Source of the DNA: Sphingomonas sp. Root720
Lineage (GTDB): Bacteria; Pseudomonadota; Alphaproteobacteria; Sphingomonadales; Sphingomonadaceae
Length of the DNA: 64,000 bases
Assembly (NCBI RefSeq): GCF_001428605.1
Contig: NZ_LMID01000001.1
Span: 434,001 to 498,000 of the forward strand
Reading direction: 5' to 3'
The number at the start of each line of letters is the position of its first letter. Within the stretch, counting starts at the first letter, position 1. Both the position numbers and the translations under genes were made by a program. The notes beneath the pieces were generated by a model. It made no database searches. It was not told where the DNA came from and was given only the letters and a program-made list of their open reading frames with translations. Below are positions 34,614 to 47,029 of this stretch, piece after piece.

Positions 34614-34979
34614 TCAGCGAATTTCGGGGCTGATGCTTGGCCGGTCGCGATGCGCCGGCACGAAGCGTTGCGCGGAGAAGCTGTGCGGCACCGCCGCGCT
34701 GCCGCCATAAAGCTCGTGGTGCGGCGCCGCTTCGGCAAAGGCGCAGACCAGCTCGAACAGATTGCGCGGCGGCCCCTCCAGTCCCTCCAGGGGATATCCG
34801 GCCAGCAGGCGTAGCGCATCGTCGAGCCTGGGCATGAATGCCGAATAGAAGTCGGCGAAATCCTGCTTCGATGCGGCCCAGCGGATAAGGCTGCGCTCGC
34901 CCTCGGTAGGCCGCGCCCAGCGTGCGGCGAGATCGGCGAACGGCTCGAAACCATGGGGAAGATTGTTGTCGGTGGTCAT
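34614..34979 (-). CDS. Small Rieske-oxygenase companion protein (copy A)
   Basis: A 121-residue soluble protein of no family I recognise. It is homologous to the products at 41970-42341 and 45486-45842. Shared features are an N-terminal W-A-x-P/S-T-x-x-E-R patch, an FY motif (DFYSAFMPRL), a PL-x-x-L stretch, the AE-x-A-P-H-x-E-L-Y segment near residues 86-95, and an F-x-x-x-R-F-x-x-x-H ending. It lies 11 bases after the Rieske gene, as a likely partner. It has no cysteine ladder, so a ferredoxin is ruled out. The pairing suggests a small subunit, chaperone or assembly factor. Confidence 0.7.
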   Translation of the reverse strand: MTTDNNLPHGFEPFADLAARWARPTEGERSLIRWAASKQDFADFYSAFMPRLDDALRLLAGYPLEGLEGPPRNLFELVCAFAEAAPHHELYGGSAAVPHSFSAQRFVPAHRDRPSISPEIR

Positions 34980-34990
34980 GATCGAAATCC

Positions 34991-36220
34991 TCAGGCGGCG
35001 AGAAAGCGTTCGTGCACGAGCGCGGCGTGGCGGATCAGGAATTCCTGGTCCATCAGCTGCATCGTATCGATCGCCCCCGAACGAATACCGGTGAAGGTGT
35101 CCTCCATGGTCGCGGTGTCCTCCAGCCAGGCATTGCGATGGAGCGCGTTGACATGGAGCTGCGCCGCCCGCTCGGCGGCGTTCCGGGCCGGCCGGAAATA
35201 GTTGATCCCCTCCCACAGGGTCCGACCATGGTCGAGCGGCCAGAACTGGTGGGTGAAGAAGGACATGCCCGGATAGCCACAGCCCGACGCGAGATGGATG
35301 ATGAAGTTCGGGAAGATGTTGGGCAGCTCGAACTGGAAGTCGGTGCGCCGCGTCGGATTGATCCCCGGCGGCAGCTGGTCGGGGCGCGGGCGGTGCGGCT
35401 CGGCCGAATGGAGCACACCGGCAAAAGCCGCGGTCGACGCGGCCGTATCCATGCCCGCGCCGTAGATGGTCGAGGAGGCGTGCGGGCCAATCAGCTTGAA
35501 ATCGCTATGCTCGACGCCGCGGAAGCCCGGCAGCGAGCCGGCGTGGATGGTCGGCACATGATAGCCTTCGGAAAAGGCGTAATGGGCGACCTTCCAATTG
35601 CATTCGAGTACGGTCGAATAGCGGAAGATGGTGGTCGATTCCGCATAGGGATAGCCGCCGAACAACGTGGCGAAGTCGCCCAGATAATCGAGCAGGCTCT
35701 GCTCCGGCGGATCGGCGAAGTTGATGAAGACGAAGCCTTCCCAGATGTCGCAGGCGATCTCGCGCAGTCCGAGGCAGCTCTTGTCGAGCTTGCCGAACCC
35801 CTCCTCCACCGGCACCGATTTCAGCGGGCCGTCGGTGCCGAACACCCAGCCGTGGAAGCGGCAAGTGACGACGCCGGCGCGCGAGCGGCCATAGCTTTCG
35901 AAATCGCTGTTCGGCACCACCTTGTTGCCGCGATGGGTGCAGACATTGTGGAAGGCGCGGATGCGACCGTCCTTGCCGCGCACGATCAGCACCGAGGTAT
36001 CGGCGACCGGCATCTCCTTGACCTTATAGTCGCCGATCTCCGGGATCTCCCAGGCGACAGCGACTTTCAGCCAGGCACGGCGGAAGATCTTCTCGCGTTC
36101 GAGTTCATAGACCGCCGGGTCGCGGATCGCGTCCACCGATACCGGATCGATACCCAGTTCGGCCCGGATTTCCGCGATCGAGCGGCCGAGGTGGCCCAGC
36201 GCCCTGTCCTGCACGTTCAT
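34991..36220 (-). CDS. Rieske oxygenase alpha subunit (copy A)
   Basis: A 409-residue alpha subunit. The Rieske site is C94-x-H96 and C120-x2-H123 (CRFHGW). The mononuclear iron site follows ECNWKVAHYAFSEGYHVPTIH with His221 and His226; the bridging position is Glu218 instead of the usual Asp. The substrate is unknown, and the sequence does not match biphenyl, naphthalene or benzoate enzymes clearly. AAGGAG precedes the ATG. It lies in the order SnoaL-Rieske-companion, so the three probably form one operon. Confidence 0.85.
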   Translation of the reverse strand: MNVQDRALGHLGRSIAEIRAELGIDPVSVDAIRDPAVYELEREKIFRRAWLKVAVAWEIPEIGDYKVKEMPVADTSVLIVRGKDGRIRAFHNVCTHRGNKVVPNSDFESYGRSRAGVVTCRFHGWVFGTDGPLKSVPVEEGFGKLDKSCLGLREIACDIWEGFVFINFADPPEQSLLDYLGDFATLFGGYPYAESTTIFRYSTVLECNWKVAHYAFSEGYHVPTIHAGSLPGFRGVEHSDFKLIGPHASSTIYGAGMDTAASTAAFAGVLHSAEPHRPRPDQLPPGINPTRRTDFQFELPNIFPNFIIHLASGCGYPGMSFFTHQFWPLDHGRTLWEGINYFRPARNAAERAAQLHVNALHRNAWLEDTATMEDTFTGIRSGAIDTMQLMDQEFLIRHAALVHERFLAA

Positions 36221-36240
36221 TGCTGCTCTCCTTGCGTAAA

Positions 36241-36717
36241 TCAGGCGTCGGCCAGGGCCGCCGGCTTGGGCGACCAGCCGTCGGGATAGTGCGAGATCAG
36301 GTCGGCCTTGAGCTCGAGCCGGCGGAACCGCCAGCGAGCCCCGTCGACCCGCGCTTCGGCGGCATAGCGCCCGCCGATCCAGTAGGCGCGCCCGCTCGCG
36401 GCGGTGGCGACTTCCCACAGGTAGAATTCGATATCGGCCGACCGCATGTCGGCGCTCAGCCCGACCTTGGGCGAAACCAGATAATGGAGAGTCCAGCGGA
36501 AACCCTGGTCGGCATTGCCGGCGACCCCGTCCGCGATCGTATCGCGGCCGCGCAATTCGCCATAGCGGTCGATCAGAAAGGCCGCATCGGCCACGAACAG
36601 GTCGCGCAGGCCCTCCGCCGACGGTCCGCCGTCGAAGGCCCGCCCCAGGTCGGCGATCAGGTCGTCGATCGCGCGAAGGGCCTCGAGACGGATGACCCGT
36701 TGTTCCAGCGATTCCAT
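36241..36717 (-). CDS. SnoaL/NTF2-like protein, possible oxygenase beta subunit (copy A)
   Basis: A 158-residue NTF2-fold protein: the helix LEALRAIDDLIADLGRAFD, then FVADAAFLIDRYGELRG, RWTLHYLVSP, IEFYLWEVATA and WRFRRLELKADLIS. It is homologous to the product at 42338. Oxygenase beta subunits share this fold, so it may be the beta subunit for the adjacent alpha subunit; a hydratase/isomerase is an alternative. It is 20 bases upstream of the Rieske gene on the same strand. Start chosen at 36717 behind GGAG. Confidence 0.72.
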   Translation of the reverse strand: MESLEQRVIRLEALRAIDDLIADLGRAFDGGPSAEGLRDLFVADAAFLIDRYGELRGRDTIADGVAGNADQGFRWTLHYLVSPKVGLSADMRSADIEFYLWEVATAASGRAYWIGGRYAAEARVDGARWRFRRLELKADLISHYPDGWSPKPAALADA

Positions 36718-36769
36718 ATTCGCTCCGCAAAAGCTGGGGGCGGCCAGACTGGGCCGCCCCCTGTCACGA

Positions 36770-39160
36770 TCAGAAGGAATAGCGCGCGGTGAGGTACCAT
36801 TCGCGCGGGCGACCGAAGACCCCCTCGACGATGCCGCCGAAGGAGTCGGCATAGCCCGAGCCGAGATAGACCTCCTTGGTCAGGTTCTTGACGCCCGCGG
36901 TGATGCCCCAGCGCTTGTCCTCGTCATTATAGGCGATCGACGCGTTGACGAGGTGATAGCCGTCCTGGACCAGCAGCGGATTGTTGACGGCGTCGTTGTA
37001 GACCCGCGACCGGTAGGACCAGTCGACCCGCGGCTGGAAGCTGCCGATCCCGTCTACCGCGATATTATAGGCGACGCCCGCGCTGAGCGTCCATTTCGGA
37101 GCGTTCTGAAGCTTGGTCGCAGTGGTCACGCCCGCGTTGAGCGCGCGGATGTCGACCCGGCGATATTTGGCGTCGAGATAGCCCAGACCCGCGTCGATCT
37201 GCAGCCCGCCCACCGGACGCGCCTGCATCTCGAGTTCGAACCCCTTGATCCGTGCCTTCGCCGCATTCTGGATGATCGGCGCGAAGCCCAGGGTCGGGTC
37301 GTTCACGGTGATCTGCAGGTCATCATAATCGTTGAGGAAGGCCGCCCCGTTCAGCCGCAGCCTGCGGTCGAACAGGTCCGACTTGAAGCCGACTTCGTAG
37401 GTGGTACTGGTCTCCGGCTTGAACGACGGGATGAAGGCGAACGGCGGGAAGACGCGCTGGGTGAAGCCGCCGCCCTTGAAGCCCTCGGAGTAGGAGGCAT
37501 AGGCCAGCAGCTCGGGGCTGAAGCGATAGGCCAGGCTGACCATCGGGGTCCAGGCCGTGTCCTTCACCGTCGCCCTCTGGCCCAGCGGCCCCATCAGCGG
37601 ATCGCCGTCCTGCAGGCCCGAGCCGTCCGGATTGAAGGGCGAACCGGTCAGGAAGCCCGCTTCGACGACATATTGGTTCGCGTTGCCGAAGGTCTTCTTG
37701 TCCTCGGTCCAGCGGAGACCGGCGGTGAGGTTGAGGTTGTCGACGATCTCGTAGGTACCCTGCCCGAAGAAGGCGAGGCTCTTGCCGTCGAGGACCGCGC
37801 CGCTCAGGAACACCGCATCGACGATGTTGACCAGGTCCCGGTGATTGCCGCTCTCGCTCGAATAATAGCCGCCGACGACCCAGTTGAAGCGGCCGTTGGC
37901 GACGTCGCCCTGGAGCTGGACCTCTTCGGAGAACTGATCCTGCTTCCAGTCGCTGTTCGTCTGGATGATCGACGCCGGGCTATGATCGGAGTCGCGGGTC
38001 CAGAAGCCGGTCACCTTGCGATAGGCGGTGATCGACTTGACCGAGATGCCATCGGCGATCTTCCACTCGATCGTGCCCGACGCCCCCCAGATGTTCAGAT
38101 CCGAGCCCGACTGGTAGCGCTTGGGATTGCCGTTGGTGAAGATATCCGAGATGGCCGAAAAGGTGCCGCCATGGCGATAGGGCGCGAGCGCCCACTGGCT
38201 GTTGAAGCAGCGCTGGTCGGTGAAGCGACCCGCTGCCGCCGGATTGGCACAAATGCCGGGCGCACCCGAATAGACGGCGTTCCACACCTGAGCGGCCGGC
38301 GCATTCTCGTCGATTGCGATCGCTACGTTCGGCGCCGACTGCTCGCGCGCGCGCGATCCGTCGACGGCCAGGTCGATGGTGACGTCGCTCGACGGTTCGA
38401 GCCGCAGCGCGAAGCGACCAGCGAGCTGATCGGTGTCGCCCAGGTCGGGCGCACCGGCGACCACGCCTTTCACATAGCCATCGCGCTTGTGGTAGAAACC
38501 GGCGATGCTCGAATAGACCCCCTCCGCCAGCGGCAGGTCGATCGAACCCTTGGCCTGGATGCGGTTGAAGCGGCCGGTGGTCAGCTCGAGCGAGCCGGCC
38601 AGCTTGTCGCCGGGCTTCTTGGTGACGACGCTGACCGCGCCGCCGATCGTGTTGCGGCCGAACAGCGTGCCCTGGGGACCGCGCAGCACCTCGATCCGTT
38701 CGACGTTGAGCACGTCGAGGACATTGCCGACGCCGCGCGAGATATAGACCCCGTCGAGATAGAGGCCGACGCCGGGATCGGCCGAGAGCTGATAATCGTT
38801 CTGGCCGATGCCGCGGATGAAGATGGCGGCGGTCGCATTGCTCGCCGAGACCGGCACCGAGCTGTTGAACTTCACGTTCGGGGTGAAGTCGCCGATCTGC
38901 GTGACATTGTCGATGCCGCGCGCGGTCAGGCCCTCGGCCGTGACGGCGGAGATGGCGATCGGCGTATCCTGCAGCGATTCCGCCCGGCGGCGCGCCGTGA
39001 CGGTGATGATCTCCACACCGCCATCGTCGGCCGTCTCGGCCGATGCGGCATCCGCCGGCGCCTGCTGTGCGCTGGCCATGCCGGCCGGCGCCGCAAGCCC
39101 GATCAGCGAGGCGCCGATCAGCAGCCCGCGCCGCAGCATATTCTGGTTCATCACGTTCAT
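36770..39160 (-). CDS. TonB-dependent receptor (copy 2)
   Basis: A 796-residue outer-membrane receptor with a signal peptide (MNVMNQNMLRRGLLIGASL..., ending GMASA-QQ), a plug with IITVTARRRAESLQDTPIAIS and VEVLRGPQGTLFGRNTIGG (read as RIEVLRGPQGTLFGRN), and a barrel ending FGRPREWYLTARYSF. It is related to copy 1 across its length. It is the first gene of the minus-strand TonB-SnoaL-Rieske-companion set, with a 52-base gap to SnoaL. It likely imports the oxygenase substrate. Its start is supported by the signal peptide and GGAGG. Confidence 0.9.
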   Translation of the reverse strand: MNVMNQNMLRRGLLIGASLIGLAAPAGMASAQQAPADAASAETADDGGVEIITVTARRRAESLQDTPIAISAVTAEGLTARGIDNVTQIGDFTPNVKFNSSVPVSASNATAAIFIRGIGQNDYQLSADPGVGLYLDGVYISRGVGNVLDVLNVERIEVLRGPQGTLFGRNTIGGAVSVVTKKPGDKLAGSLELTTGRFNRIQAKGSIDLPLAEGVYSSIAGFYHKRDGYVKGVVAGAPDLGDTDQLAGRFALRLEPSSDVTIDLAVDGSRAREQSAPNVAIAIDENAPAAQVWNAVYSGAPGICANPAAAGRFTDQRCFNSQWALAPYRHGGTFSAISDIFTNGNPKRYQSGSDLNIWGASGTIEWKIADGISVKSITAYRKVTGFWTRDSDHSPASIIQTNSDWKQDQFSEEVQLQGDVANGRFNWVVGGYYSSESGNHRDLVNIVDAVFLSGAVLDGKSLAFFGQGTYEIVDNLNLTAGLRWTEDKKTFGNANQYVVEAGFLTGSPFNPDGSGLQDGDPLMGPLGQRATVKDTAWTPMVSLAYRFSPELLAYASYSEGFKGGGFTQRVFPPFAFIPSFKPETSTTYEVGFKSDLFDRRLRLNGAAFLNDYDDLQITVNDPTLGFAPIIQNAAKARIKGFELEMQARPVGGLQIDAGLGYLDAKYRRVDIRALNAGVTTATKLQNAPKWTLSAGVAYNIAVDGIGSFQPRVDWSYRSRVYNDAVNNPLLVQDGYHLVNASIAYNDEDKRWGITAGVKNLTKEVYLGSGYADSFGGIVEGVFGRPREWYLTARYSF

Positions 39161-39563
39161 CGTCCCTTTTCCTCCCGATTGCACCCGGCACGGCGCCGGT
39201 TCGTCGGACACCCGGAGGTGTCCATCCGGGTCGCGCCCCCGCGCGCCCACCGATCACGAACCCCACGGCTGGTGACAGATGCATGCAACACCGTCGGGGG
39301 CCTGATGCGCTAGCCTCAGGGCGCGAGAAGCAGCACCACAGCGCGATCGAATGGGACATCGCCGAAACGCCCATTTTTCGGGCTTCCCGCCGCTCATACG
39401 CGCGCGAACGCGCGGTCATGTCGCCATTTCGGGGCGCATGACGGCCGCTTTGATGCGGTGACCGGCTACTAGGCTCGGCAGAGGGATAGCCGTCCGACGG
39501 CCCCTCCGATCATCATCTCCCCACGGTCCGGCATCGGACATCTGGAACAGCGCGAGGAAGCAG
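39161..39563. other. Divergent regulatory region between TonB copy 2 and FmdA copy 2
   Basis: A 403-base gap between two divergent operons and the largest such gap here. A perfect hairpin, GGACACC-CGGA-GGTGTCC, lies at 39206-39223 on the TonB side and would be in its mRNA leader. CGCGCG-AA-CGCGCG follows at 39401-39414. AT-rich spots such as CCATTTTTCGGG (39371-39382) may mark promoters. No protein gene was found. Confidence 0.5.
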
Positions 39564-40730
39564 ATGGCGAACACAGTGGAAGTCAAGCGCAGCGGGACGA
39601 CGGCCAAGGACGACCCCAACTGCTTCAACCGCCTGCATTGGGCGATCGAGCCGGTCATGCGCGCCAAGGCCGGCGACTATATCGTCTACGAGACGCGCGA
39701 CGCCTTCGACGACCAGTTCGATTGGTCGAGCACGCCGGCCGACGTCGCCGCCTGCGATCTGAACCGCGTCCATCCGATGACCGGCCCGGTCTTCATCGAG
39801 GGCGCCGAGCGCGGCGACGCGCTGGCGGTGACGATCGTCGACATCGCGCCGAGCGACTATGGCTATACCGTCATCGTCCCCGGCTTCGGCTTCCTGCGCG
39901 ACGTGATCCCGGGACCGTTCATCGCCAACTGGAAGCTCGACCGGCTCTGCGCCGTGTCGGATCAGATTCCGGGCGTCCGCGTGCCGATGTGCGCCTTCCC
40001 CGGCTCGATCGGCGTCCTCCCCGGCGAGCCCGAGGTCGCCGCCGCGCTCGAACGCGAAGGCGCCCTGGCGGCGGCGGGCGGCTTCGCGCTGATGCCCGAT
40101 CCGGGCCGGGCGCTCCCCGCCAGGCTGTTCGGCGAAGGCGCCCCCTATGCCGCCGAGGGCCTGCGCACCGTGGCGCCGCGCGAGAATGGTGGCAATATGG
40201 ACATCAAGGCGATGCAGGTCGGCACCACGGTGATCTTCCCCGTCCTCGTCGACGGTGCCGGCCTGTGGACCGGTGACATCCACTTCGCCCAGGGCGATGG
40301 CGAGGTGTGCGGCACCGCGGTCGAGATGGCGGCGAAGGTCACGCTGAAATGCGAGGTGATCAAGGGCGGCGGCAAGAACATCGTCTTCCCCCACGTCACC
40401 GGCGGCGGCCAGCTCCGCAACACCGAGCCGAGCCGTTTCCACGCGATCGTCGGCATGCCGGTGAAGAAGGCGGGCGAGGTCCCTCCCCACCTCGCCTATC
40501 TCGACAGCCCCAAGGTCGCCGCGCTGACCAACCTGTCGGAGGACCTGACCCTCGCGGCGCGCGACGCGCTGCTGCGGATGATCGACTGGATCGCCGAGAC
40601 CAAGGGCTACAGCCGCGAGCAGGCCTATGCGATCTGCGCCGCCGCGGTAGATCTGCGCATCGGCCAGCTCGTCGACGTCCCCAACATCATCGTGTCCGCC
40701 ATCATCCCGCTCGACATCTTCGTCGAGTGA
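39564..40730 (+). CDS. Acetamidase/formamidase family protein (FmdA/AmdA, copy 2)
   Basis: A 388-residue FmdA/AmdA-type hydrolase homologous to the 31464 product, with GAERGDALAVTIVDI, an ENGGNMD segment and the conserved HFAQGDGEVCGTAVE region. It has about 20 residues more at the N-terminus. It leads a plus-strand operon with a Rieske oxygenase, the companion protein, a SnoaL protein and a ferredoxin, so its amide substrate may belong to the same pathway. GAGGAAG precedes the ATG by a proper spacer. Confidence 0.85.
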   Translation: MANTVEVKRSGTTAKDDPNCFNRLHWAIEPVMRAKAGDYIVYETRDAFDDQFDWSSTPADVAACDLNRVHPMTGPVFIEGAERGDALAVTIVDIAPSDYGYTVIVPGFGFLRDVIPGPFIANWKLDRLCAVSDQIPGVRVPMCAFPGSIGVLPGEPEVAAALEREGALAAAGGFALMPDPGRALPARLFGEGAPYAAEGLRTVAPRENGGNMDIKAMQVGTTVIFPVLVDGAGLWTGDIHFAQGDGEVCGTAVEMAAKVTLKCEVIKGGGKNIVFPHVTGGGQLRNTEPSRFHAIVGMPVKKAGEVPPHLAYLDSPKVAALTNLSEDLTLAARDALLRMIDWIAETKGYSREQAYAICAAAVDLRIGQLVDVPNIIVSAIIPLDIFVE

Positions 40731-40759
40731 GCACGACCGGCAGCATCGGAGATACGACA

Positions 40760-41953
40760 ATGAACGCTGAACATCGCTGGCTCGAAGCCTATCCCGAACT
40801 CGGCTCGGGCCCGATCTCGACCGAGCCGTACATCTCGCCCGAATGGTATGAAAAGGAGAAGGAGAAGATTTTCCGCAAGGTGTGGCTATGCGTCGGCCGG
40901 GCCAACGAATTGCCGAGGGCGGGCGACTACAAGGTCAAGCGGATCGAGGCGGCGGGCACGTCGGCTATCGTCATCCGCGGCAAGGACGGCGAGATCCGTG
41001 CCTTCCACAACATGTGCGCGCATCGCGGCAACACCGTAGTGACCGAGAGCGGCGACGAAAGCTACGGCAGCAGCCGGGCGGCGGTGCTCACCTGCCGTTT
41101 CCACGGCTGGGTTTACGGCGCCGACGGGTCGCTGAAGAGCGTGCCCAGCGAGAACCGCTTCTATGATTGCTTCGACAAGGGGCATAACGGCCTCGCGCCG
41201 ATCCATGTCGGCCTGTGGGAAGGCTTCATCTTCATCAACGTCGCCGAGACTCCGGACAACAGTCTCGAAGCGTTTCTCGGCGACTATGCCGAGCATTTCC
41301 GGGGTTTTCCCTTCGACGAGCTCGACTTCGGCTTCACCTACCGGACCGAGGTCGACTGCAACTGGAAGGTCGCGCACGACGCCTTCGCCGAAGCCTATCA
41401 TGTCGACACCATCCATGCCGGTTCCTTCCCCAACGTCTTTTCGACCGGCCTCCAGAACGTGAAACTGATGGGACCGCACCGAACCTGCGCGGTCTGCCTG
41501 ACACTCGACGCCAAGCCCACGCCCGTCGCCGGAATCGCCAATGCGATCGCCGGGGCCAGCCTGGTCTCGCGGCGTGGGGAATCGATGCTGCCGCCGCTGA
41601 TCAACCCCGATCATCGTTCCGACTTCGCGTTCGAGCTGAGCGTGCTGTTCCCCAACACCCTGCTTCACGTCTCGGAAGGCATCTGGTTCACCCACCAGTT
41701 CTGGCCGCTCGCGCACAACCGGACGCTGTGGGAAGGTCGCTATTATGTGAAGGCGCCGACCAGCAACGCCCAGCGCTGGGCGATCGAGCATGCGATGACG
41801 CTCCAGCGCAACGCCTGGCTCGAGGATACCGCGACGATGGAGGACACCCAGCGGGCGATGCAGTCGCGCGCCAAGTCGCTCCAGCACCTCCAGGACGACG
41901 AGATACTGATCCGCCACGGCGCGATCGTCGTCGACCGATATGTGAACGCCTGA
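40760..41953 (+). CDS. Rieske oxygenase alpha subunit (copy B)
   Basis: A 397-residue alpha subunit clearly related to copy A. The Rieske ligands are C86-x-H88 and C112-x2-H115. The mononuclear site (VDCNWKVAHDAFAEAYHVDTIH) has His214 and His219, with Glu211 in the bridging position. It shares with copy A the sequences NWKVAH, FTHQFWPL, LWEG and RNAWLEDTATMEDT. It sits 29 bases after FmdA copy 2, behind GGAGA. The substrate is unknown; a carboxylated aromatic or an amide-derived acid is possible. Confidence 0.87.
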   Translation: MNAEHRWLEAYPELGSGPISTEPYISPEWYEKEKEKIFRKVWLCVGRANELPRAGDYKVKRIEAAGTSAIVIRGKDGEIRAFHNMCAHRGNTVVTESGDESYGSSRAAVLTCRFHGWVYGADGSLKSVPSENRFYDCFDKGHNGLAPIHVGLWEGFIFINVAETPDNSLEAFLGDYAEHFRGFPFDELDFGFTYRTEVDCNWKVAHDAFAEAYHVDTIHAGSFPNVFSTGLQNVKLMGPHRTCAVCLTLDAKPTPVAGIANAIAGASLVSRRGESMLPPLINPDHRSDFAFELSVLFPNTLLHVSEGIWFTHQFWPLAHNRTLWEGRYYVKAPTSNAQRWAIEHAMTLQRNAWLEDTATMEDTQRAMQSRAKSLQHLQDDEILIRHGAIVVDRYVNA

Positions 41954-41969
41954 CGAAAGACCCGATAGA

Positions 41970-42341
41970 ATGACCCTATCCCCCTTGCCGGCCGCGTTCG
42001 CCGACCTGGCGCCCTGGCTCGACTGGGCCCTCCCCACCGCGGACGAGCGGCAGGCCAGGCGTCTCGCCTCGACCTCCGCTGAGCTCCGTCAATTCTATGA
42101 CGGCGTGCTGCCCCGCCTGGAAGCGATCCTGGCGGAGGTCGACAGGCACCCGCTGGGCGCGCTGCCGGCGGAGCTGCAACCGATCTACAACATGGCGCTG
42201 TCGCTGGCCGAAGTCGCCCCGCATATCGAATTGTACAATGGCGCGGTGGGCGTACCCTATGCCTTCGAGGAAGGGCGCTTCATCGCCGTCCATGGCGATC
42301 AACCGACCTGGGAATGCCGACAGCCGATGGGTTTCCGGTGA
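41970..42341 (+). CDS. Small Rieske-oxygenase companion protein (copy B)
   Basis: A 123-residue protein homologous to copies A and C. It has LDWALPTADERQARRLAS, the FYDGVLPRLEAIL stretch, LAEVAPHIELYNG near residues 79-91 and a YAFEEGRF ending. It directly follows Rieske copy B (16 bases) and its stop overlaps the SnoaL start (GTGA). This is the second of three independent Rieske-companion pairs. Function unknown; no catalytic or metal-binding motif is evident. Confidence 0.7.
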   Translation: MTLSPLPAAFADLAPWLDWALPTADERQARRLASTSAELRQFYDGVLPRLEAILAEVDRHPLGALPAELQPIYNMALSLAEVAPHIELYNGAVGVPYAFEEGRFIAVHGDQPTWECRQPMGFR

Positions 42342-42835
42342 CCGCCGAGGGCGGTTTCTCCACGGAGGAACGGCTCGCCCGGCTCGAGGCGCGCGCCGAG
42401 ATTTCGGATCTCGTCGCGCGCTACGCCCAGGGTGCCGATCGCAAGAATGATCCCGCCATATTGGGCCCATTGTTCGCCGACGACGCGACATGGTCGGCCG
42501 AAGGCTTCGGCACGCTGGTCGGTCGCGACGCCATCGCCGCCGGGCTCGCCGCGGTCGCGGCGGAGCGCGTGCTCTGGTCGATCCATTACATGGTCTCGCC
42601 ACTGGTCGAGCTGGCGGAGGACGGGCTCACCGCCCGCTGCCACTGGTATCTGTGGGAGCTGTGCACGATGGCGGGGGAAGGAACGGCTGCGACCGACAGC
42701 TGGTTCGGCGGCTGGTATGACAGCGAATTGGCGAAGACCGACCGGGGCTGGCGCTTCACGCGCGTGACCCTCGACGTCCGCCTTCAGGGAGAAGCGAATC
42801 CACCATGGCAACTCAAGAAACCGGTGCGGATGTGA
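42338..42835 (+). CDS. SnoaL/NTF2-like protein, possible oxygenase beta subunit (copy B)
   Basis: A 165-residue NTF2-fold protein homologous to the product at 36241: the helix RLEARAEISDLVARYAQGADRKNDP, then LFADDATWSAEGFG, WSIHYMVSPLVELAEDG, CHWYLWELCTMAGEG and WRFTRVTLDVRL. The HYMVSP and YLWE segments match copy A. The GTG at 42338 overlaps the companion stop as GTGA; ATG at 42314 would add eight residues. It also overlaps the ferredoxin gene by 31 bases, so the genes are tightly coupled. Beta-subunit role is inferred. Confidence 0.72.
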   Translation: MTAEGGFSTEERLARLEARAEISDLVARYAQGADRKNDPAILGPLFADDATWSAEGFGTLVGRDAIAAGLAAVAAERVLWSIHYMVSPLVELAEDGLTARCHWYLWELCTMAGEGTAATDSWFGGWYDSELAKTDRGWRFTRVTLDVRLQGEANPPWQLKKPVRM

Positions 42836-43137
42836 CGATCAGGCTTTGCGCGACCCATGACATTCCCGAGGGCGAGGTCCGCCAGGTCGAGTTGGACGAC
42901 GGGCGAATGCTCGCCGTCTATCACCTCGACGGCGAGTTTTTCGCGACCGACGACCTGTGCACCCATGGCGACGCGTCGCTGTCGGAAGGCGAGATCGAGG
43001 ATGGCAAGATCCTCTGCCCCTATCATATGGGAAGCTTCGACATCCGTACCGGCGAGGCTTGCGCCGCCCCCTGCTCGATCGCGATCAGGACCTACCGGCT
43101 GAGGATCGACCAGGACGACGTCCTGCTCGCCGACTGA
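42805..43137 (+). CDS. Rieske-type [2Fe-2S] ferredoxin
   Basis: A 110-residue Rieske ferredoxin. The cluster motif C-x-H-x17-C-x2-H is read from DDLCTHGDASLSEGEIEDGKILCPYHMGSFD, near residues 51-75. Such proteins pass electrons from a reductase to Rieske oxygenases. It is the last gene of the FmdA-Rieske-companion-SnoaL-ferredoxin operon, and may serve copies A and C as well because no other Rieske ferredoxin lies near. A matching reductase is not seen in this window. Confidence 0.9.
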   Translation: MATQETGADVTIRLCATHDIPEGEVRQVELDDGRMLAVYHLDGEFFATDDLCTHGDASLSEGEIEDGKILCPYHMGSFDIRTGEACAAPCSIAIRTYRLRIDQDDVLLAD

Positions 43138-43270
43138 CCGTCCGCTACTGCCCCGCACCCCGGCCGGACCGCCCGGAGCGATTTCGCAGCGGATGGAAAC
43201 ATCCGTCGCCTCGGAAGCCGCGGTAAAACAAGGGTATGATCTCATTTGGCGGACGAAACGCTGCCCACTG

Positions 43271-43410
43271 CCGTCGCCCCGGGCTTGACCCGGGGTCCCG
43301 CTTCCCTTCTATTCCGTCGAATGGAGCAGAGCGCCGATTGGGCACCACTCTGCAGGACAGACTGACCTGAAGCAAAGAAGTGGGACCCCGGGTCAAGCCC
43401 GGGGTGACGG
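43271..43410. repeat. Inverted pair of REP-like palindromes
   Basis: Each arm contains the perfect dyad CCCCGGG-CTTGA-CCCGGGG. One lies at 43277-43295, the other inverted at 43386-43404. The full arms, 43271-43299 and 43382-43410, match as inverted repeats with one mismatch and enclose 82 bases. This fills most of the 311-base gap between the ferredoxin and convergent AraC genes. Such elements are typical intergenic repeats in sphingomonads and could fold as a long stem that ends both transcripts. Confidence 0.75.
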
Positions 43411-43448
43411 GCGCGTGGTGGCGAACCGCCTCAGCTTCGACCGGGGTT

Positions 43449-44474
43449 TCAGTTCATCCGCTTGAGCGTGGCCGAGGGGCGTTCCCCGAAGCGGTCGAGA
43501 TAGTCGCGCGCGAATTTCGAGAGATGGGTGAAACCGCAGGCAAGCGCGACCTCGGTCACCGACAGCCCCTCGTCGGCCGCCACCTTCAGCTGGCGATGCG
43601 CCAGGTCGAGCCGGTGGTTCTTCAGATAGACCATCGGGGTCGTGTCGCGGAAACGGCGGAAACCGGCGTGCAGCGAACGGGCGCTGACCCCCGACACCGC
43701 GATCATCTCCTCCAGCGTAATCGGATCGCGCGAATGCTCGTGGATATAATCCTCGACCCGCCGGACATAATAGGGCGCCGGGCTCGACGGCGGCGCGTCG
43801 AACAGGTCCGAATAGGTGTGGGGCACCGCCGCGAGCAGCAGCCGCTGCAGCGCCTCCTCGACCGTGCCGCGCGCGCGCACATGGTTGAAGCCGGCGATGC
43901 CGCAGTCGAGATCGTCGCAGATCGTGCGGACGAGATGGGCGAAGGCCGCCGCCGCGCCCTGGAGCCGAACCGGGTTGGACGAGAAGTGCAGCGCGCGCGG
44001 GCGAAAGCCCAGTTCCTGCGCCAGCACCGCCTCGAGCCCGCTCTTGGATATCTTGACGGTGAAATGCTTATATCCCTCGCCGAAGGTCTGCTTCACCTGT
44101 GCGTCCGGATCGAGCACGCACATCTGCCCGGGAAGCAGATCGATGGTGGTGTTCTGCTGCGCGATCTGGGCGACGCCCGACAGCGAGAACTGCACCAGGT
44201 AGAGCGCGTTGGTCGGCGGGATGTTGACGACGACCCGGCCATAGGGATTGCCATAGTCGGTGGCGTTGAAGGTCACCGACTTGAGCGACGCCTGGTGATG
44301 GCGGAAGGCGATCGGCGGGTTGCCGCCCTCGATCCGCAGATCGTGCGGGCAGAACATCCTGCTCATATGATCGTGGACTTCGTCGATGTCGTTCGTCACG
44401 AGCCGCGCCAGCCTCGACAGCGGCATGCCGGTCCCGTCCCAATTGCGGGGCGCATCCAGGTTGGTGATCATCAT
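43449..44474 (-). CDS. AraC-family regulator (copy 2)
   Basis: A 341-residue AraC/XylS-type activator. The N-terminal part (GRVVVNIPPTNALYLVQFSLSG...DLLPGQMCVLDPDA) matches the AraC-binding-like domain of regulators of anthranilate and benzoate dioxygenases. The C-terminal motifs are in PITLEEMIAVSGVSARSLHAGFRRFRD and LSVTEVALACGFTHLSKFARDYLDRFGERPS. It follows the racemase-like gene by 31 bases on the same strand and diverges, through that gene, from companion-Rieske copy C, which it probably activates. Confidence 0.87.
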   Translation of the reverse strand: MMITNLDAPRNWDGTGMPLSRLARLVTNDIDEVHDHMSRMFCPHDLRIEGGNPPIAFRHHQASLKSVTFNATDYGNPYGRVVVNIPPTNALYLVQFSLSGVAQIAQQNTTIDLLPGQMCVLDPDAQVKQTFGEGYKHFTVKISKSGLEAVLAQELGFRPRALHFSSNPVRLQGAAAAFAHLVRTICDDLDCGIAGFNHVRARGTVEEALQRLLLAAVPHTYSDLFDAPPSSPAPYYVRRVEDYIHEHSRDPITLEEMIAVSGVSARSLHAGFRRFRDTTPMVYLKNHRLDLAHRQLKVAADEGLSVTEVALACGFTHLSKFARDYLDRFGERPSATLKRMN

Positions 44475-44505
44475 AACCTAACCTCCACGTTCCGGTTAGA
44501 TCCCC

Positions 44506-45246
44506 TCATCGCCCTTGGAAAATCCCGTCGGCCGTCCGTTCCGGACTCGGATAGCGACGCTTGCTATGGGCAAGATCCAGGTCGAGCAGCATTTCACAAG
44601 TTTTGAACGCCACCAAGCCCGGATTGAGAACCGGTACGGCAAGGCGGTCCTTCAGGAAGACATGCGACTGGTGCATCGTGGTCGATCCCAGGATCAGCAC
44701 GTCGGCGCCGTCCTCTTCTACCGCGGCGCGCGCGGCGTCGAGGAGCAGCGGAAAGACGCTGTCCTCCTTGCCGGCCAGAAGCTCGGCGGTATCGGGCCGC
44801 ACGCCGATCGAGCGGATCGATGCCAGCCGGTCGCCCAGCCCCTGTTCGACCAGAACCTTCTCGTACAGCCAGCGCCAGCGGTCCCACATGCTGATGATCG
44901 AGAAGCGCCGGCCGAGCTGGCAGGCGAGGAGATAGGTCGCTTGCGCCGTTCCGACGACCGGGATCGACAACCGCGACCGCAGTGCCGCGACGCCGGAGTC
45001 GCTCATCGAATTGACGCAGACCGCATGGAAGCCCTCGGCTTCGGCGCGCGCGCCTGCCTCCAGGCAGAAGGCGTCGGCGATCGTGCCTTCGTAGGACGAG
45101 TCGAGCGTTGCCCCGCCGCGCGCCGCGCAGGCGAACTCGACCGAGATGTCGGGGCGCAACAGATGCTCGGGTATCTGGCTCGCAAAGGCCGCGAGCGCGG
45201 CTTCGGGCACCGGCACCGGCACGATCATCCTGATCCGCTTGTTCAT
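44506..45246 (-). CDS. Asp/Glu/hydantoin racemase-like protein lacking both catalytic cysteines
   Basis: A 246-residue protein of the Asp/Glu/hydantoin racemase superfamily, with IRMIVPVPVPE at the N-terminus, AVCVNSMSDSGVAALR near residues 74-89 and ADVLILGSTTMHQ near residue 180. At the two catalytic positions, where active racemases have Cys (ACFGDPG and LGCAGM), serine appears to stand instead. It may therefore be a decarboxylase, lyase or isomerase, or be inactive. It pairs with AraC copy 2 and diverges from the companion-Rieske copy C operon. Start at 45246 is one of two possible ATGs (the other at 45258). Confidence 0.75.
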   Translation of the reverse strand: MNKRIRMIVPVPVPEAALAAFASQIPEHLLRPDISVEFACAARGGATLDSSYEGTIADAFCLEAGARAEAEGFHAVCVNSMSDSGVAALRSRLSIPVVGTAQATYLLACQLGRRFSIISMWDRWRWLYEKVLVEQGLGDRLASIRSIGVRPDTAELLAGKEDSVFPLLLDAARAAVEEDGADVLILGSTTMHQSHVFLKDRLAVPVLNPGLVAFKTCEMLLDLDLAHSKRRYPSPERTADGIFQGR

Positions 45247-45485
45247 CGGCCCGTCCATCCCCGCAGGGCCGGGCCTAGCTTCCGATCGCCGTTCGCCACG
45301 AAGTCCAACCCTGAAAATATCATTGTCCATGACAAGGCTTATCAGCGGTCATCCGCGCGACAAGCCGTGCTTGCCGGTCCACCGCCCTATTCCGCAGTGA
45401 GCGGTCAGCGCCTGCACAGGGAGGATAGCCGCTGCGGCCGTCGGCGACGCAGGCTCCATGCGAACAGGGCGATGAAGAGGTTGCG

Positions 45486-45842
45486 ATGGCCGATATGCTA
45501 CCCCCGGGATTCGAGGATCTGCTTCCCTTCATCGACTGGGCGCGGTCGACCGAACTCGAGCGCAACGACAAGCGCTGGTCCTCCTCGCTGGCGGAGAGCC
45601 AGGCCTTTTACGACCGGATGATCGAACGGGGGGCGGCCGCGCTCGAATATCTCCAGCCCCTCGAACTGTCGGCGATCGAGGGGCCAGACCGCAGGCTGCT
45701 CGACATGTGCCTCGCCCTCGCCGAATGCGCCGCGACCATCGAGATGTACGGCGAGCCGCGGCCCAAATATGTCTTCCCGATCGCCCGCTTCGTGCCGACC
45801 CACGACGCCTGGCCGCTCGCCGGCCTGGGAGCACGCGCATGA
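45486..45842 (+). CDS. Small Rieske-oxygenase companion protein (copy C)
   Basis: A 118-residue protein homologous to copies A and B. It has FIDWARSTELERNDKRWSSS, the FYDRMIERGAAAL stretch, LAECAATIEMYGE near residues 80-92 and the ending FPIARFVPTHDAWP. It precedes Rieske copy C, reversed in order with respect to copy B, and overlaps it by ATGA. GAAGAGG lies upstream of the ATG. Finding it before the Rieske gene here and after it elsewhere argues that the pairing is functional. Confidence 0.7.
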   Translation: MADMLPPGFEDLLPFIDWARSTELERNDKRWSSSLAESQAFYDRMIERGAAALEYLQPLELSAIEGPDRRLLDMCLALAECAATIEMYGEPRPKYVFPIARFVPTHDAWPLAGLGARA

Positions 45843-47029
45843 CCACCGAACCCTGCCGCTTCATGAACCGCTATCCCGAGGAGGGCCGCGATCCGATCCC
45901 GGTCGAGCGCTACACCTCGCCCGACTATTTCAATCTCGAACGCGATCGGGTGTTCCGTCGCAAATGGCTGAATGTCGGTCATATTCTCCAGGCACCGAAG
46001 CCGAACGACTATTTCGTCGCCGACCTCAAGATCCTCGACACGTCGCTGCTCGTGATCCACGGCAAGGACGGGCAATATCGCGCCTTCCACAATATGTGCT
46101 CGCATCGCGGCGCGCCGGTCGCCTGGGATGCCCAGGGTTCCTGTCGCGGCTATCTGGCGTGCCGTTTCCACGGCTGGGTCTACGACACCACGGGCAAGCT
46201 CGTGCAGATCAGCGACGCCGCCAACTTCCCCGGCGTGAAGGCCGAGGAGAATGGCCTGACCCCGGTGCACTGCGCGGTGTGGAAGGGCTTCATCTTCGTC
46301 AACATGGCGGCCGAGCCCGAGGAGACGCTGCTCGAACATCTCGGCCCCGTCGCCGACGAGATCGGCCGGTTCGACTTCGACGGCTTCAGCCCGGCCTTCT
46401 CCTACCGGATCGACGAGAATGTGAACTGGAAGACCCTGCAGGAGGCGCAGCTGGAAGGCTGGCACCTGCCCTATCTGCATGAAAAGACGCTGGCCCGCGC
46501 GGTGAAGATCGACGGCAACCAGTATCGCCACGCCGCGATAGAACTTCATGGGATGCACGGCGTGCTCGGCTCGCCGCCGCCCGACAGCTTCGTCCCGCCG
46601 CCCACCGCGATGCTCGCCAGCCGCTTCGGCACCGGCACCGTCCAGGCGTTCGGCGCGAAGCCGGTCGCGGATGGCGAGGGCTATCGCTTCAGGGGCTCGT
46701 TCGACTTCTGGCACATCTTCCCGAACTTCTTCGTCGGGCTGCTCAACGGGCTGTTCTTCACCTTCAACATCTGGCCGATCGCAGTCGACCGCAGCCTGTG
46801 GGAGATCAAGGGCTATTATCCTCCGGTGAAGACCGCCGGCGAGCTGTTCGCCCGCGAATATTCGAAGGTCGGCCTGCGCGATCCGATGATGGAGGACTGT
46901 TTCACCCACGAGCTGATCTGCGCCCAGCTCAAGTCGGGCGCCAAGCAGCACATATTCTTCCAGGACGAGGAGATGCTGGCCCGGCACCTCAGCAACGGCG
47001 TCGATCGCTGCGTGCGCGGTCTGGCTTGA
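45839..47029 (+). CDS. Rieske oxygenase alpha subunit (copy C)
   Basis: A 396-residue alpha subunit, more distant from copies A and B. The Rieske ligands are C87-x-H89 and C108-x2-H111. The mononuclear site NVNWKTLQEAQLEGWHLPYLH has His209 and His214, with Glu206 in the bridging position. It lacks a neighbouring SnoaL or ferredoxin gene, unlike the other copies. It is followed by the convergent catR. The substrate is unknown; a product of catechol type would feed the adjacent cat operon. Confidence 0.85.
   Translation: MTTEPCRFMNRYPEEGRDPIPVERYTSPDYFNLERDRVFRRKWLNVGHILQAPKPNDYFVADLKILDTSLLVIHGKDGQYRAFHNMCSHRGAPVAWDAQGSCRGYLACRFHGWVYDTTGKLVQISDAANFPGVKAEENGLTPVHCAVWKGFIFVNMAAEPEETLLEHLGPVADEIGRFDFDGFSPAFSYRIDENVNWKTLQEAQLEGWHLPYLHEKTLARAVKIDGNQYRHAAIELHGMHGVLGSPPPDSFVPPPTAMLASRFGTGTVQAFGAKPVADGEGYRFRGSFDFWHIFPNFFVGLLNGLFFTFNIWPIAVDRSLWEIKGYYPPVKTAGELFAREYSKVGLRDPMMEDCFTHELICAQLKSGAKQHIFFQDEEMLARHLSNGVDRCVRGLA

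Follow-up and report, generated by a model that had tools for sequence, protein, structure and literature searches.

Three companion genes beside Rieske oxygenase genes

We analyzed a 64,000-nucleotide (nt) stretch of the Sphingomonas sp. Root720 genome (contig NZ_LMID01000001.1, positions 434,001 to 498,000; the window), in which three short genes each adjoin a gene for the alpha subunit of a Rieske oxygenase. The initial annotation had treated their products, here called companions A, B and C, as one family without a name and had proposed a physical or functional partnership with the oxygenases. All three genes are real and lie where they had been placed, as complete open reading frames (ORFs) of 118-123 codons, A on the minus strand (the plus-strand reading of 34614-34979 contains a stop), B and C on the plus strand. 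The genes of the three clusters are the following.

34614..34979, minus strand: companion A (121 amino acids, aa); pairwise BLASTP, profile match of 141 bits (the profile contains companion A)
34991..36220, minus strand: Rieske oxygenase alpha A (start approximate); PF00848 3.7e-23, PF00355 6.3e-15
36241..36852, minus strand: NTF2-like (SnoaL_4) protein of cluster A (start uncertain); PF13577 1.1e-17
36770..39250, minus strand: TonB-dependent receptor of cluster A; annotated homologue, profile match (the gene is one seed of the profile)
39564..40730, plus strand: acetamidase/formamidase of cluster B; PF03069 2.1e-95
40760..41953, plus strand: Rieske oxygenase alpha B (start approximate); PF00848 1e-28, PF00355 4.5e-17 (on 40790-41953)
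41970..42341, plus strand: companion B (123 aa); pairwise BLASTP, profile match
42314..42835, plus strand: NTF2-like (SnoaL_4) protein of cluster B (start uncertain, first ATG overlaps companion B); PF13577 8.2e-26
42805..43137, plus strand: Rieske-type ferredoxin of cluster B; PF00355 1.6e-18
45486..45842, plus strand: companion C (118 aa); pairwise BLASTP, profile match
45839..47029, plus strand: Rieske oxygenase alpha C; PF00848 2e-23, PF00355 3.6e-16

The order in cluster A is TonB receptor, NTF2-like gene, alpha A and companion A; in cluster B an acetamidase/formamidase gene is followed by alpha B, companion B, an NTF2-like gene and a Rieske ferredoxin gene; cluster C consists of companion C and then alpha C. 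The same three-cluster locus occurs in Novosphingobium sp. EMRT-2. As had been noted, the companion comes after its alpha in clusters A and B and before it in cluster C, with gaps of 11 nt (alpha A-companion A) and 16 nt (alpha B-companion B) and a 4-nt overlap between the start of alpha C and the stop of companion C (45839-45842). The neighbours matched PF00355 and PF00848 well above the cut-offs and carry the metal ligands, which identifies all three as alpha subunits of Rieske ring-hydroxylating oxygenases. Downstream of the clusters, a LysR gene on the minus strand is accompanied by genes for a muconate-cycloisomerase-type protein, a muconolactone isomerase, a catechol 1,2-dioxygenase and a CoA-transferase.

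The three products are related to one another at 37-39% identity: 38% for A-B (E 9e-23), 37% for B-C (E 2e-18) and 39% for A-C (E 1e-18; all single-comparison E-values). In these alignments the homology is far beyond chance. The motif patches that had been described were found with one correction. WARPTEGER, WALPTADER and WARSTELER, the F-Y segment and the C-terminal RFVPAH, RFIAVH and RFVPTH are present in companions A, B and C, respectively, while companion A has FAE at the patch given as LAE. Of the residues in these patches, only W19, R27 and R31 (companion B numbering) are invariant across 74 sequences of the wider family; L6, P7, F10, L13, F42 and E87 are near-invariant. The invariant columns hold no His, Asp, Cys or Ser and the near-invariant columns no Cys, His or Asp, so that a catalytic or metal-binding role of the companion itself is not suggested. 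Over residues 8-22, 22-62 and 66-92 the hydropathy has the 100-110 degree period of amphipathic helices, and conservation has a period of 115 and 95 degrees in the first two segments; the companion is probably a three-helix protein of about 115 residues with a short tail.

The family has no name in the databases searched, as had been stated. The three window companions gave no match in Pfam at E<=10, one chance-level match in NCBIfam and no credible match in PHROGs (searched with the window proteins). Among 83 relatives, Pfam and NCBIfam yielded scattered chance-level single hits (best listed E 0.0063 and 0.016, respectively) and no iron-sulfur (Fe-S) or chaperone family. Profile searches of PDB sequences had best E-values of 0.007 and 0.25, both to unrelated proteins; the former, Abl interactor 2, was taken as helical noise because its E-value weakened to 0.26 with a deeper profile. 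No match to a well-known family unrelated to oxygenases was found in Pfam, NCBIfam or PDB. In 22 named genomes the true copies scored E below 1e-29 and the next best hit E 0.028, a gap that marks the family as sharply bounded.

Relatives were detected, by companion-sequence searches only, in Pseudomonadota, Actinomycetota and one metagenome-assembled genome (MAG) of Myxococcota, the single occurrence in that phylum. A contig scan matched 51 named contigs, from sphingomonads, Acinetobacter, Zoogloea, Pandoraea, Burkholderia, Ideonella, Cupriavidus, Rhodobacterales and others, as well as the Myxococcota MAG and one Acidimicrobiaceae MAG; since the scan used a single type-B motif, this named set leans to type B. 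A first plasmid search matched 20 plasmid records. In samples whose tallies include the genome used as centre, the companion was found in 15/199 genomes of the window's family (Sphingomonadaceae), in 1/398 genomes of its phylum (the window's own genome only), in 13/396 of the phylum of the Acidimicrobiaceae MAG and in 1/188 of the phylum of the Myxococcota MAG, which is that MAG itself, with seven copies. Several other copies likewise share a genome, each of several genomes having more than one. The candidates scored per genome numbered at most 23 (199 genomes), 11 (398 and 396) and 24 (188), so that absences in these scans are not proof. Four duplicate loci (L094, L095, L096 and L236) were left out, although one copy in L096 is not covered elsewhere. 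The window's own genome holds only the three copies in the window, by sequence and profile searches.

Linkage and co-inheritance with one alpha clade

The companion searches applied no selection for adjacency. In the first set, an alpha gene lay within 250 bp on the same strand for 103/107 copies. The full set of 148 copies, which adds Actinomycetota, Myxococcota and further sphingomonad loci and includes near relatives, gave 143/148, with the alpha first in 127 cases and the companion first in 16; the alpha neighbours in this mapping were found by a profile of 11 paired alphas. Eight of ten plasmid loci collected later also had an adjacent alpha, which in one locus is split into two frames and in another lies in reversed order; the other two (L304, L305) carry one and the same piece of lindane plasmids, described below, with no adjacent alpha. 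Altogether 18 of 23 matching plasmid records were examined: 15 had an adjacent alpha (broken in L006, split in L311) and 3 were the lindane piece without one, and four of the remaining 5 score identically to the lindane piece. Scored by profile across genomes, as the initial annotation had suggested, the homologues lie mostly beside Rieske genes, and the partnership that it proposed is strongly supported at the genetic level.

With starts picked by a simple start/ribosome-site score, 132 of the 140 full-length pairs had a gap of <=30 nt. The genes overlap in 57 pairs, and in 35 of these the overlap is exactly 4 nt. The two genes are apparently translationally coupled. Three adjacent copies stand outside the 140 pairs: L006 with a broken alpha, one copy of L114 with an alpha remnant, and L119 with a short companion. 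No gene fusion, which would be evidence of contact, was found. One apparent fusion frame of a companion with a short-chain dehydrogenase/reductase (SDR) in L114 lies within a tandem duplication with the alpha remnant and was treated as chance.

The paired alphas form one clade. A first tree comprised 50 paired alphas (<70% identical), 14 companion-free alphas of the window's own genome and two alphas of indole-3-acetate (iac) clusters. All 50 paired alphas fell on one side of a single branch (support by the SH-like approximate likelihood ratio test, SH-aLRT, 84), with 1 change versus 14.6 in shuffles by a quick method. For the second tree, one very long row was removed and four clade alphas without an adjacent companion were added together with the alpha of genome G118; it separated 54 clade members from 16 others (SH-aLRT 99). 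The companion-free comparison set is small, being the 14 own-genome alphas (one below the Pfam cut-off and later dropped), the two iac alphas and that of G118. In the own genome, 16 alphas exceed the PF00848 cut-off of Pfam and only three have a companion, leaving 13 without. All three window companions adjoin an alpha of the clade.

Among the 199 Sphingomonadaceae genomes, scanned for clade alphas with at most 9 candidates scored per genome, an alpha scoring at least 372 bits was detected in exactly the 15 that have the companion. The only further hit was the 278-bit alpha of G118, a genome with no companion match, and this alpha lies outside the clade. The 15 genomes hold 36 clade alphas, 32 of them with an adjacent companion (in one case, in G049, a short companion fragment). 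Companion and alpha distances are correlated, with r 0.54 against a maximum of 0.22 in permutations, and only 3 of 2000 swaps between paralogues within a genome reached the observed value. Linkage alone can yield such a relationship, which is evidence of co-inheritance and not of contact.

The Rieske and iron ligands C86, H88, C112, H115, H214, H219 and D356 are invariant in 49 clade alphas. So is E211, the Glu before the iron-binding His, although a Glu stands at this position also in several companion-free own-genome alphas. In a search of the alphas for clade-specific docking residues only six scattered positions stood out and no docking tail was seen.

Potential role of the companion

Rieske oxygenases help to break down aromatic compounds; their descriptions comprise a terminal oxygenase of one or two subunits and the electron carriers that serve it. 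We suggest that the companion acts as a dedicated third component in one Rieske oxygenase clade, with a probability of roughly 0.6 on the gene and sequence data. Some dedicated functional partnership with the clade alpha is highly probable, and a physical, stoichiometric subunit appears somewhat better than an even bet. The companion would be made in roughly equal amounts to alpha and would bind the alpha trimer as a small helical subunit ("gamma"), through a surface that may include W19, R27, R31, F42 and E87; alpha would need it to fold, to hold its metal centres or to turn over. Since the alphas keep all the Rieske and catalytic-iron ligands, the companion would support catalysis and not supply it. 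It is kept across different pathways and electron donors, suggesting that its job belongs to alpha itself and not to a single substrate or donor. A stronger form, in which an obligatory, probably three-helix gamma subunit runs through a structurally uncharacterised clade in at least two phyla and one Myxococcota MAG and alpha cannot assemble or turn over without it, we put slightly below even; if true, it could help explain why the enzymes of the clade remain uncharacterised.

One branch of the Rieske oxygenases may therefore have an overlooked third part. With a co-inherited third gene in Pseudomonadota and Actinomycetota, the expression of a clade alpha without its companion could fail for a trivial reason. 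The family also potentially gives a common identity to "hypothetical proteins" beside clade alphas, including those of indole/skatole-linked clusters and of lindane-degradation plasmids. The oxygenases are of a known kind; searches of PubMed Central (PMC) literature, which does not cover subscription papers and preprints, turned up no description of the companion family or of its near-constant association with a single alpha clade.

Several observations weigh against a strict third component. The support comes from genes and sequences, and the distance correlation, as said, also follows from linkage. Conservation in the third predicted helix has no helical period (peak 155 degrees). Five of the 148 companions have no alpha within 250 bp: one lies on a piece of a lindane plasmid bounded by IS6100 (L007), where companions are kept with no adjacent intact alpha; one is 4.5 kb from its alpha (L098); one is an orphan among dehydrogenase genes (L101); one is the second of a tandem pair (L108); and one shows no alpha in the visible sequence, which stops at a contig end about 645 bp upstream (L238). 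Two of the 143 "adjacent" companions stand beside a broken or remnant alpha (L006, L114). Conversely, 4 of the 36 clade alphas have no adjacent companion, two in genome G172, one in G049 (at a contig start) and one in G094 (4.5 kb away), and each of these genomes has a companion elsewhere. In G172 three clade alphas are matched by only two companions, of which one is the orphan among dehydrogenase genes; a helper acting in trans would explain this no less well than a strict subunit.

Such a helper could be a maturation or assembly factor, which would assist transiently in folding, trimerisation or insertion of the Rieske cluster or iron and would stay outside the finished enzyme. One companion might then serve several alphas, as in G172; orphan companions do exist (L101/L303, and L007 on its IS6100-bounded piece), and the retention of the companion with all pathway and electron-donor settings is as expected for this role. 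We nevertheless consider this main rival rather unlikely and a subunit most likely, because each companion tracks its own neighbouring alpha among paralogues (the 3/2000 swaps, with the linkage caveat), the tight gene coupling is typical of subunits, and the family has neither a Cys in its (near-)invariant columns nor a match to an Fe-S or chaperone family.

Catabolic operons often place the next enzyme beside the oxygenase, and the invariant R27 and R31 with the near-invariant E87 could bind an acid, which would suit a separate small enzyme acting on the oxygenase product (for instance in diol opening or dehydration) and adjacent to alpha through the shared pathway. This appears improbable: the companions occur in unrelated settings (amidase, cupin/asparaginase, EthD/SDR, 2,5-dihydroxypyridine dioxygenase and VanB-reductase clusters) and follow the alpha clade, not the pathway. 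The 13 other own-genome alphas lack one, no companion was detected at seven Paraburkholderia loci that carry iac or other Rieske genes, and the invariant columns are devoid of His, Asp, Cys and Ser. Least probable of all, and hardly to be expected, is an adaptor for electron transfer between alpha and ferredoxin or reductase, or the substrate gatekeeper raised in the initial annotation, even though the companion stands beside alpha in every cluster type seen. An adaptor or gatekeeper should vary with the donor or the substrate, whereas the companion is kept with a ferredoxin within 5 kb in 55/148 copies, with a VanB-type reductase in 12/148 and with neither in 81/148. Its persistence across pathways argues against a substrate-specific gatekeeper, and the CxH...CxxH ligands of Rieske ferredoxins are absent, with no Cys or His in the (near-)invariant columns of 74 sequences.

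As a dedicated third component, the companion can be compared with known small partners of oxygenases. The beta subunit of ring-hydroxylating dioxygenases (PF00866/NTF2-like) is likewise a small protein encoded beside a Rieske alpha. Unlike it, the companion has no PF00866 or SnoaL-type match (none for the window companions and none among 25 listed of the 28 weak Pfam families found for 83 members at E<=0.5), and it occurs on top of an NTF2-like gene within 5 kb (72/148 copies) or beside an alpha without one (71/148). Diiron monooxygenases have effector and gamma subunits of the MmoB/DmpM and MmoZ type. These offer a works-like analogy only, in that the alpha subunit of an oxygenase is coupled to an additional small protein; they belong to a different oxygenase class, and no such Pfam match was seen for the companions.

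The closest solved alpha to the clade profile is carnitine monooxygenase CntA (6y8j, 6y9c) at 206 bits, compared with at least 372 bits for clade members, so that no clade member appears to be solved. The clade has the invariant E211 before the iron-binding His, and CntA has a bridging Glu; to our knowledge CntA and the glycine betaine monooxygenase GbcA work without a companion.

IacB of the iac pathway, the most attractive candidate for a known relative, resembles the companion in its length (about 125 aa), in having no assigned function and in its cluster, where a Rieske alpha occurs with an NTF2-like protein, an amidase and an SDR. Its role is called unclear in one report (PMC7225977). We rejected IacB as a relative, with an hhalign probability of about 0.1% and profile E-values of 0.04-0.7 for four Paraburkholderia IacB sequences, which were assigned by position and length, not by record name, at iac loci located through PF00866 hits and gene order. 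In one of these Paraburkholderia loci (L182), a Rieske alpha is accompanied by a small subunit, an ORF of transporter size, an ORF of 125 aa, an NTF2-like gene and an SDR; the order resembles that of the LB400 iac cluster as given in PMC11676955, with extra ORFs between. Both iac alphas in the trees fall outside the companion clade. A protein of 124-128 aa with an apparent internal repeat adjoins an iacD-like gene in three Paraburkholderia loci (L183 7446-7829, L184 7243-7626, L187 7900-8271) and is not named in the iac literature consulted.

Pathway settings and lindane plasmids

With its amidase, alpha B, companion B, NTF2-like protein and ferredoxin, cluster B may oxygenate an N-substituted aromatic compound toward catechol, which would be consumed by the cat genes just downstream. 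By analogy to the iac pathway, in which a flavin oxygenase, SDR, Rieske oxygenase and amidase act before catechol, we tentatively propose a substrate such as an oxindole or an anilide, with less than even confidence. The gene order of cluster B recurs in Acinetobacter, Zoogloea and others together with an indole/styrene-type monooxygenase, a flavin reductase, an SDR and a ferredoxin reductase. In Acinetobacter piscicola p38, according to tables of PMC11434297, gene1684 (alpha) was raised by indole and by skatole, and gene1687 (monooxygenase) and gene1690 (ferredoxin) by skatole. From their numbering and order we infer that these genes form a cluster-B-like cluster. Counting against the same reading for the window, a search of the own genome for the Acinetobacter indole/skatole monooxygenase, run without a positive control, found no match. 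The entry step therefore probably differs, only the later steps are proposed here, and skatole as the window's own substrate is unlikely by that route.

The G172 genome offers a natural test of companion action in trans: its orphan companion lies among SDR genes (L303 9651-9980), and two of its alphas have no neighbouring companion (L299 5825-6973, L300 5793-6920).

The companions of lindane plasmids stand in a piece with linC and an EthD gene between IS6100 copies, with no adjacent intact Rieske alpha (L007 4508-6327; L304 7508-9330; L305 7508-9330). In a locus of another sphingomonad (L097, 7971-11132), an SDR 72% identical to LinC, an EthD protein (72%) and a companion (68%) occur together with a Rieske alpha. 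These counterparts suggest that linC was probably recruited from a companion-Rieske pathway.

In Variovorax sp. WDL1 (L306 5706-10791), an alpha and companion lie beside an ester-cyclase gene, which we take to be SnoaL-like, and a ferredoxin-domain gene, together with a 2,5-dihydroxypyridine 5,6-dioxygenase and an isochorismatase; this neighbourhood suggests a pyridine substrate for that pair. An Asp/Glu racemase-family gene (window 44506-45330) is divergent to companion C and has the same neighbourhood in related sphingomonads (L004, L042-L046, L048). Two small cupin genes follow the companion in L010 (6371-7080) and L011 (6356-7047), and also in L083, L084, L086-L090 and L092. The first cupin of L010 had no NCBIfam match. 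The first cupin was found near 11 companion copies and the second near 10, and the pair is possibly another component beside the companion.

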